DNA of 9,407 nucleotides, taken from the NCBI GenBank assembly GCA_946885335.1, contig CAMPGG010000121.1:1-9407 (forward strand). The letters are read 5' to 3'. Both the position numbers and the translations under genes were made by a program. The notes below the pieces were generated by a model, which was not told where the DNA came from, did no database searches, and worked only from the letters and a program-made list of their open reading frames with translations. Below, piece by piece: positions 982 to 9,407 of this stretch. Within the stretch, counting starts at the first letter, position 1; each line of letters begins with the position of its first letter. The DNA comes from an uncultured Chitinophagaceae bacterium. Its GTDB lineage: Bacteria; Bacteroidota; Bacteroidia; Chitinophagales; Chitinophagaceae.

Positions 982-1701
982 TCAGTTGCCGCCACCTGCA
1001 GCTATTATATTTCCGCCGCCGGCTGAGATCACGTTGCCTCCGCCTGCAGCTATTATGTTACCACCGCCAGCAGCAATGATCCCGCTGGCAGCTTGCGAAC
1101 TCAGTGATGCAGTAGATACGGATGATGTCTTAATATTAGGCCTGATACTGGTGGCAGAAGAAGTGCTCCGGTTATTCTGCTTCCAGGTAGTGTGCATAGC
1201 AACAAGTTGGACAAAAGAATAAGTGGGCTGTCTTTTCCAGTACTTCACTTCGTCACTGGTGGCATTGCGATTAAACACTTTGTAATAGGATTGCCTGATG
1301 ACATGTTCTTTTTTGTCGGGATAGATATTCAGCCAGTTGTCGATATGATTTTTCATCAACTCCGCATAGGTTCTATTCTGGCTGCTCCAATAGCGTAATT
1401 CATCTGCACTTGGCTGCCATCCGAAAGCGTCCATATATGAGTTCTTCACTACTTTTTCTTTTTCATACCGGTTTGATTTCAAGTAATTCCTGTGATTTTC
1501 CACCATCTGTGGAATGTTTCTGTTGCCCACATTCTGCCGCCAGTAATTCAGTTCGCCGGAACTGGCATACCGCCCAAAAGCCACGAAATAACTTGCATTA
1601 ATGATTTCATCTTTTGATTGCGCATTCACTGAAGTTGAAAAAGATAATGTTAGCATTGCAAGCATTGCAAAGATCACATTGCGTGATAACCATGATTTCA
1701 T
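982..1701 (-). CDS. Secreted protein with three DUF4214-like repeats and an octapeptide tail
   Basis: The frame is open further up to 1731, but only from a TTG. The ATG at 1701 starts a good signal peptide (MKSWLSRNVIFAMLAMLTLSF, cleavage near SVNAQ/SK), giving 239 residues. Residues about 31-80, 83-131 and 132-178 are three related units of roughly 50 residues, each with the core S-Y-x(3)-F-[GN]-x(3)-[AS]-[ST]-x-[GD]-E-[LV]-x-Y-W. This resembles the DUF4214 motif found in bacterial surface and secreted proteins. A Ser/Thr-rich linker (about 178-206) leads to four exact octapeptides, [IV]-I-[AS]-A-G-G-G-N (208-239), ending at the stop codon. No enzyme motif is visible. A structural, adhesive or surface role is inferred. 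The lipoprotein gene follows 11 bases downstream. Confidence 0.8.
   Translation of the reverse strand: MKSWLSRNVIFAMLAMLTLSFSTSVNAQSKDEIINASYFVAFGRYASSGELNYWRQNVGNRNIPQMVENHRNYLKSNRYEKEKVVKNSYMDAFGWQPSADELRYWSSQNRTYAELMKNHIDNWLNIYPDKKEHVIRQSYYKVFNRNATSDEVKYWKRQPTYSFVQLVAMHTTWKQNNRSTSSATSIRPNIKTSSVSTASLSSQAASGIIAAGGGNIIAAGGGNVISAGGGNIIAAGGGN
985..1080 (-). repeat. Four 24-bp coding repeats for IIAAGGGN
   Basis: Four consecutive in-frame 24-base units (985-1008, 1009-1032, 1033-1056, 1057-1080) encode the octapeptides at the C-terminus of the secreted protein. Codons for Gly, Asn and Ile differ between units, while the peptide is almost unchanged. That points to selection on the protein rather than very recent slippage. 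The first and third units in plus-strand order are the most alike. Confidence 0.85.
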
Positions 1702-1792: not shown

Positions 1793-2428
1793 TTATAAAA
1801 CATTATGTTCCCTGGCGTAATTAAGCAAACCGATTACAGTTTTAGCTCCTGTCTTTCTAATAATATTTTTGCGGTGCGTTTCAACCGTGTGTTCGGATAA
1901 AAACAACTCCCGGCTGATTTCAGCTGAAGTCATTTCATTTGCAATCAATTTAATAATTTCTATTTCCCTTGGTGTAAGCTGGCTGTTCTTCCTGCCTTCT
2001 TTTTTCTGCTGGTTGAAACGGGAATAACTAACGGCAAGCATTTGCTGAATGTACTGGCGGCCGGCCATTACATGTTCAATGGCTTCAAACAATTCTGGTT
2101 GCTTTACATTCTTAAGCAGGTAGCCCAGTGCGCCGGCTTCCAGCAGGGAAGAAACATGCTGCATATCATCGTGCATGGATAATACAATGATCTTCGTTTG
2201 TGGAAATTTCTGCATAATGTTTTTGGTAAGACTAAGACCTGATACTTCGCCCATGCTGATATCGGTAAGTAAAAGGTCTGGTTGCAGCTTTTGCACCAGG
2301 TCTTCCGCAGCAGTGGCTGATGAAGCTTTACCAACTACCTGTAAATGGGGCGAATCATTCAGAATTGATTCTATGCCATCCATGAGAATGTCGTGATCGT
2401 CTGCCAGTACAATGGTTATCTTTTCCAC
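1793..2428 (-). CDS. LuxR/NarL-family response regulator
   Basis: A 211-residue two-domain regulator of normal length. The receiver domain (about 3-120) has the acidic pair D10/D11, phospho-acceptor D56 (in LLTDISM), the switch Ser S84 (IIVLSMHDD) and the conserved K106 (GYLLKN). After a linker (about 125-148) comes the LuxR-type helix-turn-helix (about 150-211; LTPREIEIIKLIANEMTSAEIS, then LSEHTVETHRKNI). The protein should be phosphorylated on D56 by the sensor kinase encoded just upstream and then bind target promoters as a dimer. Its ATG lies inside the end of the kinase gene with a 13-base overlap, so translation of the two is probably coupled. Target genes cannot be read from the sequence. 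The secreted protein and lipoprotein genes downstream are candidates only by position. Confidence 0.93.
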   Translation of the reverse strand: MEKITIVLADDHDILMDGIESILNDSPHLQVVGKASSATAAEDLVQKLQPDLLLTDISMGEVSGLSLTKNIMQKFPQTKIIVLSMHDDMQHVSSLLEAGALGYLLKNVKQPELFEAIEHVMAGRQYIQQMLAVSYSRFNQQKKEGRKNSQLTPREIEIIKLIANEMTSAEISRELFLSEHTVETHRKNIIRKTGAKTVIGLLNYAREHNVL

Positions 2429-4353
2429 AAATTATTTTTAGCGTTATCAATAACTGCAAGTGATTGTTTGTTTATTCGTACGATTGTGGTAGTCCCTTTC
2501 CCTGGTGTGCTGTCTACCTCAAAAACACCATCAAACAATGCTACCCGGCTTTCGAGATTTTTAAGTCCCAGCCCGGAAGTAGTGCCTGTTTGAAATCCTA
2601 TACCATTGTCTTCTATCATCAGTTGCACTTCATCTTTATCTATATCCAATTGAACCGTTACCATGCTTGCCTGCGAATGCTTTAATGTATTTGCGCTTAG
2701 TTCCTGGAAGCAACGATAGATGGTCAGTTCAATCAGTTCATCATGCAGTGGTTCCTGCACATGTGTAAAAAGAGTAAAAACCATTTTGTCGCTGGCGTCG
2801 TTGAGCCTGTCGATTGAAATTTCCACAGCCTTAATGAGTCCGTAATGCAATAGCAATTCAGGCGTAACCTGGTGCGAAAGGTTGCGCACTTCCGTGCCGG
2901 CTTTTGTAATAAGTTCATCAACTTTCTCCAGCGGAAGCTGTCCTTTGATCGCTTTGTTTAATTGCATGGAAGCTGCAACAAGCATTTGTCCCACACCATC
3001 GTGCAGGTCTGCCGCGATGCGTTTACGTTCTTTTTCTTCCGCTTCAACTACCGCGATGGAGCGTTTTTTTTGTTCATTCAGTTGCCCGACTGCTAATTGA
3101 GTTTTGTGCCGGCTCTTCATCAGTTTGGATATGTAAAGACCGGAAGCAATGAGCATACCGAGTACGGCCAAAAGTAATATCAGCCATCGCTGCTGGTTGC
3201 TGTTCCGCAATTTTGTTTCAAGATTTTCCTGCCTGAGGCGAAGGTTCTCAGAAGTTTTTTTCTCCGTTTCAAATTGAACCTGCATTTGCGCAAATGCCTG
3301 GTTATAATGTTCGTCTGCCAGGCTATCCTTATGCTGCAGTAATTTTTCCAGGTATGTTGCTTCATTGCGGTGATCACCCGTAGCCGCATAGGCATTTGCC
3401 AGCGACCTGTATGCGGCAGAAAGTTTCAGGTTGTTGTCATTTTGCACACTTATCGCTTCTGCTTTTTTTGCCCAGGTGATGGACTGGCGGGGTTGGTTAT
3501 TTTTTAAATAAAGATCGGCCAGTTCCAAATAATCCGATGCCAGCATGGAAGGATCTGAATTCATTTCACGTATCGTGGAGGCTTCTTTTAAAACTGCGAT
3601 GGCTTTATCCATTTTACCTTGCTGGTAATAACTCCGGCCAAGGATATTAAGACCATTTGCATGGTCCAACCTGTTTTCATTTTTTTTAGATGCGGCAATG
3701 CCTTGCAGCGCATAAGTTTCCGCTGTTTTAAAATTGCCCAGTGTATTATAACAAGCCGCAATATTGTTAAGCAAAACTGGCCTGCTAAGATAATTTTCTG
3801 CAGGATTCAGTTGTAACACTTCATTAAAAAAACGAATGGCTTCCGAAGGCTTGTTATCTTCCATATATGCCCAGCCGATGCTGATAAGCACACTGGTTTC
3901 GCTGAACTTATCATTACGTTTGCGGGCTACACTTAGTGCCTGGTTAAAGTTTGCCAGTGCTTTTGCAAACTGGGTTTTTTTAACGAAGCATTGTCCTTTA
4001 AGGATATAAAACTTCACCAAAGCGGTATCTGCATTTATTCCCGGCAAATGTTTCAATGCACTGTCTATTGATGCGATGGTCTGATCTGGCGGATTTTGAC
4101 GATAACTTATCCAGGCCTTAAAAAAACTGCTTTGGATGGTTCCGTGTTGATGGTTGTGTAATTTGGAAAGGGTGGCAAGTGTATCAATCATTCTCCGGGC
4201 GGCTGCTTCATCACTGCGGACTTTTGAAGGAATATTCCGGATGAGTGAATCAATGGCAGGAGTAGACTGCGCTGATATATTAACGTTATGAAATATTACC
4301 AGCAGTAAAAGAAACTTAATTTTTGTAAATGAAATAATTGCCGCGGGTTTCAT
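2416..4353 (-). CDS. TPR-repeat sensor histidine kinase (HisKA_3/NarL type)
   Basis: A 645-residue membrane sensor. Residues 1-29 form a signal peptide (cleavage near ISAQ/ST). About 65-345 consist of TPR-like helical repeats (for example GQCFVKKTQFAKALANFNQAL, near 120-140), placed outside the inner membrane. A coiled coil (about 350-388) leads to one transmembrane helix (about 390-408), then a short helix and the HisKA_3 dimerisation domain with phospho-acceptor H451 (ERKRIAADLHDGVGQ). The HATPase_c domain (about 540-626) has its N-box at N555, a G1 box D582-N-G-I-G586 and a G2 box G594-L-G-L. All catalytic motifs are present, so it should be active. Its partner is the overlapping NarL-type regulator. 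The signal sensed by the TPR part is unknown; in this family it may be a protein or peptide partner. Confidence 0.93.
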   Translation of the reverse strand: MKPAAIISFTKIKFLLLLVIFHNVNISAQSTPAIDSLIRNIPSKVRSDEAAARRMIDTLATLSKLHNHQHGTIQSSFFKAWISYRQNPPDQTIASIDSALKHLPGINADTALVKFYILKGQCFVKKTQFAKALANFNQALSVARKRNDKFSETSVLISIGWAYMEDNKPSEAIRFFNEVLQLNPAENYLSRPVLLNNIAACYNTLGNFKTAETYALQGIAASKKNENRLDHANGLNILGRSYYQQGKMDKAIAVLKEASTIREMNSDPSMLASDYLELADLYLKNNQPRQSITWAKKAEAISVQNDNNLKLSAAYRSLANAYAATGDHRNEATYLEKLLQHKDSLADEHYNQAFAQMQVQFETEKKTSENLRLRQENLETKLRNSNQQRWLILLLAVLGMLIASGLYISKLMKSRHKTQLAVGQLNEQKKRSIAVVEAEEKERKRIAADLHDGVGQMLVAASMQLNKAIKGQLPLEKVDELITKAGTEVRNLSHQVTPELLLHYGLIKAVEISIDRLNDASDKMVFTLFTHVQEPLHDELIELTIYRCFQELSANTLKHSQASMVTVQLDIDKDEVQLMIEDNGIGFQTGTTSGLGLKNLESRVALFDGVFEVDSTPGKGTTTIVRINKQSLAVIDNAKNNLWKR

Positions 4354-4636: not shown

Positions 4637-6709
4637 TTATGGCACCGGTAAATAAACCAAAAATGTTGATCCTTCTCCCGGTTTGCTTTCTGCCTTTATA
4701 TATCCATTGTGATTTTCAATTACCTTTCTTGTAATGGATAAACCGATCCCGGTTCCTTTGTATTCTGCATTGCCATGCAGCCTGGTAAATACATTGAATA
4801 TCCGGTTTGCATCTTTTTGTTCAAAACCAATCCCATTGTCCTGGATGGAAATGACATAAAAATCTGATTGCTTTTCCCTGGCAGATAAGTGCAAGCCTGA
4901 ATCTTTACCGCTGATTTTTTTGCCATTGATATTAATTTCCGGAATTACACCGGGCTTGGTATACTTTAATGCATTGCCCACCAGGTTTTGAAAAGCTTGC
5001 TGTAACTGCCGGTGATGTCCTTGTATGGTAAATAATTTGCCAACATGCACTTTTGCATTTTTCATTTCCGCTTCAAGGTCAAGATCATTTAAAACAAGCG
5101 TAAGTACCTGGTTCAAATCAACGGCTTCAAAAGATGTTGGTCGCAATGATAATTGAGAATAATTCAACAGGTCATCAATCAGCGATCCCATCCGCGTAGA
5201 TGCCAGTTCCATCCGTTCAAAATACTGGCTCTCTTCTTCTGACAACCGGCTGTTCAAACTCTTTTTCAACCGGTCAGCAAAAAAATGAATTTTCCTGACC
5301 GGTTCTTTCAGGTCATGCGAAGCTGCATAAGCAAACTCTTCCAGGTTTGCGTTGGATCGCTTTAGATCTTCTACATATTTCTCTAACTGGATTTGTGATT
5401 CTTTGATCGGTGTAACATCTGTAAAAATGTGAATCAAATGATCATCATCCATTTTAGATACGGTAAGTTCCAGCCATCGTTTGGTATATTCCAAATAGTA
5501 TTGGGTAATCGACGGTTCGCCAGTCTCTAATGTATTTACGCACATTTGATAATATGGTGAACCAATTAAATTGGGATCAATTTCAACGGCTGTTTTTGAC
5601 AGGTAAATATCTTTGGGAAGACCAGTAAATTGAATAGCCGCATCATTGGCCAGTATGGTTTTGGCATCAATGATTTTTCCATTTTTATCCCTGATCATTT
5701 CAGATACTGAAATGCCATTAGAAGAATAAGTAAGAATGTTATCCAGTAGATTATTTTGTTTTTCCAGGTCAGCGGTACGTTCCTGCACTTTTTTCTGCAA
5801 TTCGGCTTCACTGCCTTCTAACTTTTTCCTGGCTACAACCTGCTCTGTAATTTCATGGGCAACCACAATAAAACCATCCACTATGTCATTTTCAAAAAGC
5901 GGTTCCCACACCGAATTAAAGTAACAGGTTTCTAATTGTCCATTCCGCTTCAGTTGCATTTCAAATTCACTGGCCGGAAAAGATTTACCGGTTCGCATCA
6001 ATTCTTTTGCAAGCGGTTCAAGGGTTTCTTTGGCTTCCGGTAAAGATTCAAACAAAGGTTTACCAACAAACTCTTCACGGGTTCTGCCAACCAACGGCAG
6101 GTAAAAGTTGTTGGCTAATTCAGCAACAAAATTTTGTCCGCGAAATACCGCGATAGCTACGGGTGCCTGCATGACCATAGATCTGAAACGCTGTTCGCTT
6201 TCTTTGATCCTTTTAGCTGCCAATACTTTTTCAGTAGTTTCCGTACAGGCACAAAAAACACCACTGACTCCGCCGGCATCATCAAACACAGGGCTGTAAG
6301 AAAAAGTGAAATAAGTTTCCTCCACATACCCATGCCTGTTAATCATCAGCAACTGATCTTCTGACCAGGTGGAGGTACCTTCCTGCATGACCTTGTTGGC
6401 CAGCGGACCCACATCATCCCATATTTCTGACCATACTTTGGGCCCTGATTCACCCAAAGCTTTTGGATGTTTATCTCCCGCTATAATATGGTAAGCATCA
6501 TTATAAATAGTAACCAGTTCAGGTCCCCACCAAACAAACATGGGGAACTGCGAATTCAGTAAAATATTTACAGCGGTACGTAAATTCTGGGGCCAGGTGC
6601 TGGCATCGCCGATTGGCGTTTGCGACCAGTCAAAATGACGAATCAGTTCTCCCATCTCACCGCCACCTTGTAGAAAAGAAATGGCTGAATCTTTTTTGGT
6701 TGATTTCAT
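4637..6709 (-). CDS. Soluble multi-PAS sensor histidine kinase
   Basis: A 690-residue kinase from the ATG at 6709; a GTG two codons earlier (6715) is possible. Three PAS-type sensing modules are visible: about 25-158 (opening WSQTPIGDASTWPQNLRTAV, a common first domain of Bacteroidota kinases), about 172-288 and about 320-435. A short coiled coil (295-320) lies between the second and third. The HisKA domain carries H465 (YAASHDLKEPVRKI). The HATPase_c domain (about 560-688) has N-box N579 (NLVGNALKYT), a G1 box D624-N-G-I-G628, an F-box FNVFTRLHG and a G2 box GTGIGLS. No membrane helix or signal peptide is seen, so it should act in the cytoplasm on an internal cue. PAS ligand residues cannot be assigned. 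No response regulator or receiver domain is attached or adjacent, so its partner lies elsewhere. Confidence 0.92.
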   Translation of the reverse strand: MKSTKKDSAISFLQGGGEMGELIRHFDWSQTPIGDASTWPQNLRTAVNILLNSQFPMFVWWGPELVTIYNDAYHIIAGDKHPKALGESGPKVWSEIWDDVGPLANKVMQEGTSTWSEDQLLMINRHGYVEETYFTFSYSPVFDDAGGVSGVFCACTETTEKVLAAKRIKESEQRFRSMVMQAPVAIAVFRGQNFVAELANNFYLPLVGRTREEFVGKPLFESLPEAKETLEPLAKELMRTGKSFPASEFEMQLKRNGQLETCYFNSVWEPLFENDIVDGFIVVAHEITEQVVARKKLEGSEAELQKKVQERTADLEKQNNLLDNILTYSSNGISVSEMIRDKNGKIIDAKTILANDAAIQFTGLPKDIYLSKTAVEIDPNLIGSPYYQMCVNTLETGEPSITQYYLEYTKRWLELTVSKMDDDHLIHIFTDVTPIKESQIQLEKYVEDLKRSNANLEEFAYAASHDLKEPVRKIHFFADRLKKSLNSRLSEEESQYFERMELASTRMGSLIDDLLNYSQLSLRPTSFEAVDLNQVLTLVLNDLDLEAEMKNAKVHVGKLFTIQGHHRQLQQAFQNLVGNALKYTKPGVIPEININGKKISGKDSGLHLSAREKQSDFYVISIQDNGIGFEQKDANRIFNVFTRLHGNAEYKGTGIGLSITRKVIENHNGYIKAESKPGEGSTFLVYLPVP

Positions 6710-6912
6710 CTGCACGCTAATCAGTTAAGAATTTGAAATTAATAAATAAAAATTATGAACGATTTATATAATAATTATCGAAATCAAATTATAAAACTGC
6801 AAAACGATGAATAATATATTTTGCATTCATTGTCAAATTAATAAACTTTAAATGTGAATACATTGGATTGTCAGTATGCAAAATACAAGCCACCTGTTTT
6901 GGGATTATTATT
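6710..6912. other. Divergent intergenic region
   Basis: About 200 AT-rich bases separate the PAS kinase gene (leftward) from the ABC importer operon (rightward), so promoters for both must lie here. No full TTTG-N20-TAnnTTTG match was found for either; TACATTGG (6859-6866) and TAAATGTG (6849-6856) are near matches on the plus strand without a well-spaced -33 box. A 7-bp inverted repeat TGCAAAA (6798-6804) / TTTTGCA (6819-6825) with a 14-base spacer is a candidate regulator site. Confidence 0.5.
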
Positions 6913-7863
6913 ATGATCGTCGCAAATAATATAAGTAAAAGATTTAACGGGATACAAGCCGTTGATAACATTTCTTTTGAAGTAAAAGAAGGTGAAACCC
7001 TTGTATTGCTGGGCACTAGTGGCTGCGGCAAGACAACCACTTTGCGCATGCTGAATCGTTTGATTGAAACGGATACAGGTGATGTAACAATTAATGGAAA
7101 AAATATTTTGTCTCAATCCATCACCGGGCTTAGAAAGAACATGGGTTATGTATTGCAACACCATGGATTATTTCCACATTACACAGTAAGCGAAAATATT
7201 GGCATTGTGCCCCAATTACTTCATTGGGAAAAAGGAAAAATAAAAGAAAGAACAAATGTGTTAATGGAGAAATTGCAATTACCTGTTTCATTGGCCAATG
7301 CTTATCCTGCTGAATTAAGTGGCGGACAGGCACAAAGGGTAGGCCTGGCAAGAGCCCTGGCTGCTAACCCTGATATTCTTTTGATGGATGAACCATTTGG
7401 TGCCTTAGATCCTATCACCCGGGTTGAAATAAGAAAGGAACTAAAACAACTGGATGAATTAAAGAGAAAAACAATTGTATTGGTTACGCATGATGTACAG
7501 GAAGCCTTTGAACTTGGGGATATGATCTGCCTGATGAAAAATGGATCCATTGAACAAATTGGTGAACCTGCGGAATTATTATATCATCCTGCAACAGCAT
7601 TTGTCAGCCGGTTTTTAGAACAGGAGCGGTTGCAGTTGATTTTAAAATCAGTTTTGATCAAAGATGCCTGGCATTTATTACCGGCAACACAAATTGAAAA
7701 GGCTAGTCAACTAACTATACAAAATAATTTATGGGAAGCCATGGAACTCATCACCCAAAAAAATAAAAATCTTATTATAAGAAATGAAGAAACAGGAGAA
7801 ACAAAAGAGATCAGTTTTGCGGTAATTGAAACTGCATTGAATTCAATGAATCAAAGGAACTAA
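6913..7863 (+). CDS. ABC importer ATPase, OpuCA/ProV/EgtUA type
   Basis: The ATG at 6913 is chosen because it aligns with the family N-terminus (MIVANNISKRFNG); the frame is open further upstream, but only from a TTG. The 316-residue product has Walker A G34-TSGCGK-T (34-42), Q-loop Q82, ABC signature LSGGQ (135-139), Walker B ILLMDEP (155-161), a D-loop near GALDP and H-loop H193. It couples ATP hydrolysis to uptake through the permease encoded one base downstream. Sequence around 217-236 (GEPAELLYHPATAFVSRFL) is typical of the betaine/osmoprotectant class. The tail (about 256-312) looks like a single weak CBS-like unit, where OpuCA-type proteins often carry two CBS domains. The substrate, betaine-type compound or ergothioneine, cannot be decided from the ATPase. 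Confidence 0.93.
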   Translation: MIVANNISKRFNGIQAVDNISFEVKEGETLVLLGTSGCGKTTTLRMLNRLIETDTGDVTINGKNILSQSITGLRKNMGYVLQHHGLFPHYTVSENIGIVPQLLHWEKGKIKERTNVLMEKLQLPVSLANAYPAELSGGQAQRVGLARALAANPDILLMDEPFGALDPITRVEIRKELKQLDELKRKTIVLVTHDVQEAFELGDMICLMKNGSIEQIGEPAELLYHPATAFVSRFLEQERLQLILKSVLIKDAWHLLPATQIEKASQLTIQNNLWEAMELITQKNKNLIIRNEETGETKEISFAVIETALNSMNQRN

Positions 7864-7864
7864 A

Positions 7865-9407
7865 ATGGAAGAACAGCAAAACCTTTGGCAGTTTATGGCG
7901 CAGCAATCGGGCAAGCTTTGGGAACAAACGCTTACGCATACCGGTCTCACATTTATTTCTTTACTGATTGCTGTGTTGGTTGGATTGCCGCTTGGGATTA
8001 TTATCGCAAAAAGAAAATCGCTTGCTTCCGGAGTGTTGGGGTTTGCCGGCATTTTGCAAACCATTCCTTCTATTGCATTATTGGGTTTCATGATCCCTTT
8101 GCTGGGCATTGGTCCGCTACCTGCTATAGCTGCACTTTTTCTCTATGCACTTTTACCCATCATCCGCAATACGTATACAGGTATTAAGGAGGTGGATCCT
8201 GCTGTTGTTGATGCAGCTTATGGAATGGGGATGACCCCAAAGCAGGTTTTATTAAAGATTCAATTGCCACTGGCCATGCCCGTTATATTAGCCGGTATTC
8301 GTACGGCAACGGTAATCAATGTGGGTGTGGCAACACTGGCTGCCTATATTGCCGCAGGTGGTTTGGGTGAATTTATTTTTGGGGGCATTGCCCTGAACAA
8401 TACCAACATGATACTGGCAGGCGCCATTCCTGCAGCATTACTTGCCATACTGTTTGATTTCGTTTTATCCATCGTTCAAAAATTACAGGTTAGAAAAATG
8501 CGCAGGGTGGCCATGGTATTGCCTGTTGTTTTATTGCTGTTTTCATCTTTTTATATTGTTCCATTTTCGGGCAAAAAAATGCTGGCAGGTTTTACGCCTG
8601 AATTCATGGGCAGGGAAGATGGATACCTTGGGTTAAAGAAAGTCTATGGATTAAAAATTCCAACGGTGGTGATCAGCGATGCCGTAATGTATAAAGCGGC
8701 ATTTGAGAAAAAACTGGACGTGATCAGTGGTTACAGTACAGACGGAAGATTAAAAGCTTTTGATCTCATTACGCTGGAAGATGATAAAACCATTTTTCCG
8801 CCATATTATGCGGCACCATTGGTGCGGCAAGAGTCATTAAAGAAATTTCCTGAACTGGAACCGGTGTTAAATATGTTGTCAGGTAAGATCAATGACAGCA
8901 TCATGACCGATTTGAATTACAGGGTAGATTATTTAAAACAGCTTCCGGAACAAGTGGCCAGGGAATTTTTACAACAACATCAATTGTACAAACCGCCACA
9001 AAATGGACAGGGCGGCATAGTACGCATCGGTTCAAAAATATTCGGCGAGCAATATATTTTAGTCAGCATGTACAGCATGCTGATTAAAGGATACACAAAA
9101 CTGCAGGTAGAAACAAAAACCGGGTTGGGTGGTACCAAAATATGTTTTGATGCATTGACCAATGGCCAGATCGATTTTTATCCTGAGTACACGGGAACGG
9201 GATTGCTGGTTTTGTTGCAACCATCCAAACAGGAATTGCAAAAAGTGATTGGCGATAAAGAAGCCACCTACCAGTTTGTAAAAACTGCATTTCAAAATAA
9301 ATTCAATCTTGTTTGGCTTCAGCCCATTGGATTCAATAATGCATATGCGCTGATGATGCGAAGGCAACAGGCAAATGATTTGGGCATTAAAACCATTTCT
9401 GATCTGC
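7865..9407 (+). CDS. Permease fused to a rearranged substrate-binding domain (OpuC/ProWX/EgtUBC class, partial)
   Basis: One open frame runs from the ATG at 7865, one base after the ATPase stop, to the window edge (514 full codons, no stop). Residues about 26-205 are the permease, with several membrane helices and the ATPase-docking EAA-type segment at about 116-146 (DAAYGMGMTPKQVLLKIQLP). A basic stretch (KLQVRKMRR, 206-214) and a further helix (215-233) would place what follows outside the cytoplasm. Residues 241-375 match the C-terminal part of the usual binding protein (REDGYLGLKKVYGL, STDGRLKAFDL, LEDDKTIFPPYYAAP, NYRVD). A linker KPPQNGQGG (376-384) leads to the normally N-terminal part at 385-514 (VRIGSKIFGEQ, GLGGTKICFDAL, FYPEYTGTG, IGFNNAYAL, ISDL). 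The order is thus reversed. The import role is well supported; the substrate (betaine-like or ergothioneine) is not. Confidence 0.9.
   Translation, partial: MEEQQNLWQFMAQQSGKLWEQTLTHTGLTFISLLIAVLVGLPLGIIIAKRKSLASGVLGFAGILQTIPSIALLGFMIPLLGIGPLPAIAALFLYALLPIIRNTYTGIKEVDPAVVDAAYGMGMTPKQVLLKIQLPLAMPVILAGIRTATVINVGVATLAAYIAAGGLGEFIFGGIALNNTNMILAGAIPAALLAILFDFVLSIVQKLQVRKMRRVAMVLPVVLLLFSSFYIVPFSGKKMLAGFTPEFMGREDGYLGLKKVYGLKIPTVVISDAVMYKAAFEKKLDVISGYSTDGRLKAFDLITLEDDKTIFPPYYAAPLVRQESLKKFPELEPVLNMLSGKINDSIMTDLNYRVDYLKQLPEQVAREFLQQHQLYKPPQNGQGGIVRIGSKIFGEQYILVSMYSMLIKGYTKLQVETKTGLGGTKICFDALTNGQIDFYPEYTGTGLLVLLQPSKQELQKVIGDKEATYQFVKTAFQNKFNLVWLQPIGFNNAYALMMRRQQANDLGIKTISDL

Follow-up and report, generated by a model that had tools for sequence, protein, structure and literature searches.

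A permease-fused, circularly permuted substrate-binding domain of OpuC/EgtU kinship, frequently encoded beside egtB and egtD

When the two halves of a substrate-binding domain stand in reversed order, do they form one circularly permuted domain or part of a tandem array? The question is raised by the last open reading frame (ORF) of a 9,407-nucleotide stretch of an uncultured Chitinophagaceae bacterium (contig CAMPGG010000121.1, assembly GCA_946885335.1; hereafter the window), whose 3' end lies inside that gene. The gene (7865..9406, plus strand; 514 codons, open at the window end) encodes a permease followed by a circularly permuted binding domain. Residues 1-231 (7865..8557) comprise the permease domain (BPD_transp_1, 40-214) and a last anchoring helix, with helices reaching residue 231 in the model of a close relative, P0001. 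In the same model a short tether (residues 232-240, 8558..8584), with a predicted local distance difference test score (pLDDT) <50 at residues 232-235, links the anchoring helix to lobe 2, whose first strand starts at 241. The canonically C-terminal block (C-block; residues 241-375, 8585..8989) comes first, and the canonically N-terminal block (N-block; residues 385-514, 9017..9406) comes last, all on the plus strand. Between them, a Pro/Gly/Asn-rich linker visible in the sequence (residues 376-384, 8990..9016) connects the old C-terminus to the old N-terminus. The original prediction had delimited the blocks and the linker in the same way, and had proposed a clean circular permutation from the complementarity of the two blocks.

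Both PF04069 and the solved EgtUC domain bear out these coordinates and this motif order. PF04069 matched the fused ORF in two stretches, the best of which aligned residues 240-371 with profile positions 116-257, so that the second half comes first. Against EgtUC (9egi_A), residues 239-376 aligned with chain residues 139-276 (independent E-value 4e-34) and residues 388-514 with 10-132 (6.2e-20); the order is reversed, the two chain pieces are adjacent (six residues apart) and no part is duplicated, which is far beyond chance. As to membership of the OpuC-like cluster F-III, both PF04069 halves are present, but in reversed rather than canonical order. Further, three homology searches, each of which scored about 8000 proteins and listed the 120 best, together gave 351 distinct proteins, whose architectures were called with hidden Markov models (HMMs) of the C-block (C) and the N-block (N), built from 105 relatives of the window, and of the permease (T). 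Among the 351 homologs listed, 348 were T-C-N and three were T-T-C-N, all permuted. Likewise, block HMMs found C before N in 80 of 80 close loci (L001-L080), two of which are cut by contig ends; these loci are related to one another, since they are the 80 top-ranking of the window's 413 confirmed matches. Together with 14 evenly drawn loci they make up the 94 loci discussed below, and the 348 and three proteins, the window, and 78 and 14 loci form 444 aligned rows, in which the linker between the blocks, measured by HMM ends, is 8-23 residues long (median 11).

The window stops at ISDL, exactly where another C-block could start, as had been pointed out originally, and might thus cut through a C-N-C array of tandem or one-and-a-half binding domains. 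However, P0001, which is 99% identical to the window protein, has 525 amino acids and stops 11 residues past ISDL with no second C-block, which makes this a circular permutation and not a tandem. Twelve relatives end 6-12 residues past ISDL, the 120 homologs listed are 511-526 amino acids long, and across all 444 rows the N-block is followed by 0-18 further residues (median 2). No protein with two binding domains was found among the 351 listed homologs, the three long ones carrying two permeases instead, and the DNA examined at the 94 loci contained no further ORF bearing an N- or C-block. We therefore regard the tandem reading as extremely improbable. An assembly chimera or a frameshift artefact, for which we found nothing beyond the window end falling within the gene, is a negligible concern against an order seen in all 80 named genome loci and all listed homologs. 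In addition, an AlphaFold2 model of the domain of a 76% identical relative showed a single closed two-lobed fold (pLDDT 92.5), a check proposed originally, and the permuted C-N segment is thus predicted to be one closed domain. Judged from its sequence, the binding domain is a clean circular permutation, and the N-block of the window gene is expected to run for about 11 further residues beyond the window.

A search of Bacteroidota genomes, also proposed with the original prediction, recovered the permuted fusion in 15 of 296 evenly drawn genomes and a canonical fusion in 23, with both in none. In all 23 canonical fusions the binding domain lies ahead of the permease (N-C-T; L095-L116 and L131); fused records of Listeria and Fusobacterium are T-N-C. 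Named permuted homologs among those listed come mostly from Bacteroidota and Balneolota (to which we take Fodinibius to belong). Those listed outside these phyla are three cyanobacteria (P0293, P0342, P0348) and single records from KSB1, Scalinduaceae (presumably Planctomycetota), Aminicenantes and Thermodesulfobacteriota; this wider spread is read from how the sources of individual proteins (P0281, P0284, P0293, P0297, P0339, P0342, P0348) are named, any of which may be misassigned, and P0281, P0284, P0297 and P0348 carry metagenome-bin names. In a 60-row tree of the permease and the re-ordered domain, the 41 permuted rows formed one clade (support 99/97), recovered in 99% of bootstrap trees, and the permease-only and domain-only trees gave the same grouping with lower support. 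Canonical rows occupy every other branch, and therefore the permuted state is derived. These data show that the permutation has one origin in the rows sampled. The three T-T-C-N proteins, P0188 (779 amino acids), P0194 (805) and P0196 (788), have tandem permeases followed by one permuted domain. In the permease tree P0188 is separate from P0194 and P0196, so that at least two permease duplications inside the permuted clade look independent.

Is this permutation the one already known from OpuA-type betaine-binding proteins? The original prediction had mentioned such reordering, and section 11 of PMC2395249 indeed reported in 2008 a permutation among glycine-betaine-binding proteins, 2b4l included. 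When Bacillus subtilis OpuAC was compared with an Enterococcus faecalis OpuA-like domain, query residues 119-270 matched chain residues 7-157 and query residues 18-118 matched 165-266; B. subtilis OpuAC is a natural permutant within the OpuA family, cut at the same place as the window domain, after the ISDL equivalent (2b4l/2b4m). Inheritance of the permuted order from the event that shaped OpuAC would agree with this identical cut site and with the structural comparison, in which the one strong end-to-end match was OpuAC. However, identity to OpuAC over the structural alignment is 16%, whereas the corresponding half of EgtUC/OpuBC-type chains, which have the canonical order, is 38-45% identical. 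A 60-row profile of permuted domains listed 27 distinct Protein Data Bank sequences (E 5e-77 to 6e-33), EgtUC, OpuBC/OpuCC and Archaeoglobus fulgidus ProX among them, and in each of them the family's first block matched the later portion of the chain, while 2b4l was unlisted even at E 10. Lactococcus lactis OpuA was matched weakly (E 0.0045), and the close kin of OpuAC, L. lactis OpuA and the E. faecalis protein, are unpermuted. Since the profile kin are canonical EgtU/OpuC types and OpuAC is unlisted, the family is a rearranged OpuC/EgtU relative rather than an OpuAC relative. A shared event is therefore very improbable, and the trees, whose rows do not include B. subtilis OpuAC, together with the sequence kinship support a second event, independent of that in OpuAC, at the same site. 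The two proteins also differ in that OpuAC, a member of the OpuA family, stands alone and is lipid-anchored, according to PMC2861598, and has a Trp-type cage, according to PMC9732360, whereas the window protein is permease-fused and has a Tyr cage like its OpuC/OpuF/EgtU kin.

Another close comparison is with EgtUBC (Streptococcus pneumoniae EgtU, Listeria BilEB) and OpuF-type fusions, which share the permease followed by a binding domain, the separate ATPase and the pocket frame, and whose halves are about 35-45% identical to those of the window protein. The permease is 52% identical to that of Listeria protein L132, which, given its residues and entry 4z7e (Lmo1422), is probably BilEB/EgtU. 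In contrast to the window family, these fusions have the canonical T-N-C order and different residues at the EgtU specificity positions. The N-C-T fusions share the Pfam pair, the phylum and a similar pocket with the permuted ones, but their binding domain is canonical and placed before the permease. L. lactis OpuA (7ahc-7ahh) resembles the window protein in tying permease to binding domain by a short 11-residue linker (PMC11065425) and an anchoring helix, and 370 residues superpose on 7ahh at a root-mean-square deviation of 5.1; it is nevertheless unpermuted and distant in sequence. In the part of the literature covered, we found no report of a permuted permease-fused binding domain or of an egt-linked transporter of this kind.

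The pocket of the window domain comprises E246, R250, Y290 and Y314 in the C-block and K391, T424, Y442, T445, N492 and Y494 in the N-block. The cage known from EgtU has counterparts throughout (Y341 as Y494, Y419 as Y290, Y443 as Y314, position 293 as Y442 and the hinge N339 as N492). K391, E246, Y442 and Y314 are invariant in 444 of 444 rows, R250 and N492 are each kept in 443, and T445 and T424 are each Thr in 442. The quaternary-amine cage is largely intact. The EgtU carboxylate/imidazole contacts are also present (K242 as K391, T296 as T445, R379 as R250 and E375 as E246), although they occur in canonical relatives as well and are not diagnostic.

Ergothioneine is an antioxidant, and a Cell study of 2022 reportedly described a Helicobacter transporter for it. 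An ATPase gene lies directly 5' of the transporter in 88 of the 94 loci (median gap -4 bases), and the next downstream ORF carries an EgtB motif in 80 of the 92 loci where such an ORF was examined. By NCBIfam, four representative EgtB neighbors scored 526-552 bits (cut-off 360), and four EgtD neighbors scored 302, 384, 396 and, just below the cut-off of 290.9, 280 bits. The order oxidoreductase-ATPase-transporter-EgtB-EgtD was found in 65 of 94 loci. The oxidoreductase heading the cluster in these loci is FAD-dependent and disulfide-reductase-like (for example L004:2553-3935 and L125:4911-6299) and passed no NCBIfam cut-off among the 25 families shown; as a guess, it could act on ergothioneine disulfide. 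In the Balneola-like loci L118 and L121, EgtD lies upstream of the ATPase rather than downstream, and the genome of L118 (G084) has no EgtB over the cut-off. Because the family usually sits in an egtB-egtD cluster, the likeliest cargo is ergothioneine itself or a closely related compound such as hercynine, an assignment that we favor with some reserve.

Several observations weigh against this assignment. The window, ending inside the transporter gene, has no egt gene, and neither do the flanks examined of its first two named relatives, L001 and L002. The Y494 position is Tyr in 393 of 444 rows and another residue in 51, while at the Y290 position 358 rows have Tyr and 85 have Phe. The EgtU specificity signature (Gly244, Phe293 and Tyr337; sections 8 and 13 of PMC9732360) is absent from the window, which has F393, Y442 and F490: position 393 is F in 368 rows and Q in 76 and never G, position 442 is Y in all 444, and position 490 is F in 436. 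A Tyr-type cage with Phe in place of G244 and Y337, as most rows have, is instead what PMC9732360 gives for the glycine-betaine-binding ProX of A. fulgidus. The family might then be an ordinary importer of osmoprotectants (glycine betaine, choline, carnitine), with the egt neighborhood incidental or the system broad, as its JGI name, osmoprotectant transport system permease, would imply; moreover, EgtB is missing from the neighborhood of the transporter in 5 of the 15 sampled permuted genomes (G075, G084, G131, G169, G252), although G084 has EgtD there. Against this, the flanks examined contain EgtB or EgtD at 86 of 94 loci (76 of the 80 close ones and 10 of the 14 drawn evenly), and EgtB exceeds the cut-off in 14 of the 15 permuted genomes and 19 of the 23 N-C-T genomes, as against 48 of 258 others (Fisher test 1.6e-16, uncorrected for kinship). 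An osmoprotectant role is plausible, yet doubtful. At canonical N-C-T loci, EgtB was in the flanks examined of 4 of 20 (L142, L145, L149, L159). L001, L002, L117, L122 and L124 have no pair in the flank examined; their genomes have EgtB over the cut-off elsewhere, and EgtD as well, four over the cut-off and that of L002 just under it (285.3).

We consider it highly probable, as a whole, that the gene encodes a permuted fused importer whose permutation arose once, independently of OpuAC, and whose cargo is of the ergothioneine type. The protein would be a subunit of a homodimeric ATP-binding cassette (ABC) importer, in which the permease carries a covalent cluster F-III domain of OpuC/OpuF/EgtU kinship that is a natural circular permutant. 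The EgtUC lobes are D1 (233-331 and 445-506) and D2 (341-432; section 8 of PMC9732360), and mapping would place the cut between EgtU residues ~361 and 368, inside D2. A lobe 2 loop would thus carry the new termini, so that lobe 1 (D1) would run unbroken through the new linker of ~9 residues joining the old termini, lobe 2 (D2) would be split across the domain ends, and the membrane tether would enter lobe 2 rather than lobe 1. Because the fold and the quaternary-amine pocket are kept, the domain is expected to bind ligand between the lobes, close and dock on the permease dimer, with the upstream ATPase driving its emptying as in other type I importers. The domain was probably duplicated and then lost its outer halves, giving the permutation; the lack of a duplicated intermediate among the proteins examined counts against this route. 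More tentatively, importers of ergothioneine (or hercynine) in several phyla may have re-invented the OpuAC permutation while fused to their permease, with tethering through lobe 2 altering docking on the homodimeric permease and, in T-T-C-N importers, which combine a fused permease pair with one binding domain, a single permuted domain serving the pair.

The family thus offers a second natural case of the same binding-protein fold cut at the same loop, which marks where binding-protein sensors may tolerate new termini. With living T-N-C (Listeria, Fusobacterium), N-C-T and T-C-N (Bacteroidota) fusions for comparison, whether the tethered lobe matters for docking or turnover becomes directly testable. 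It also marks the protein encoded near egtB-egtD in Bacteroidota, which the available sections of PMC9732360 leave unmentioned, as a likely transporter of ergothioneine.

Upstream in the window, the ATPase of the same operon is ProV/OpuCA-like (6913..7863, plus strand; PF00005, E 7.7e-37) and scored 291.1 bits against the NCBIfam proV subfamily, under the cut-off of 326.6; its start is likelier the ATG at 6913 than the mechanical ORF start at 6868 (TTG). The gene upstream of it is a histidine kinase on the opposite strand, not the oxidoreductase of the relatives. Also 5' of the transporter and on the minus strand, 1793-4353 encodes a LuxR-type response regulator together with a TPR histidine kinase, and 4637-6715 encodes a PAS histidine kinase. 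A protein with weak likeness to DUF4214 (22.2 bits, below the cut-off) has its C-terminus at 982-1071 (minus strand), where 24-base repeats encode GGGNIIAA-like units.
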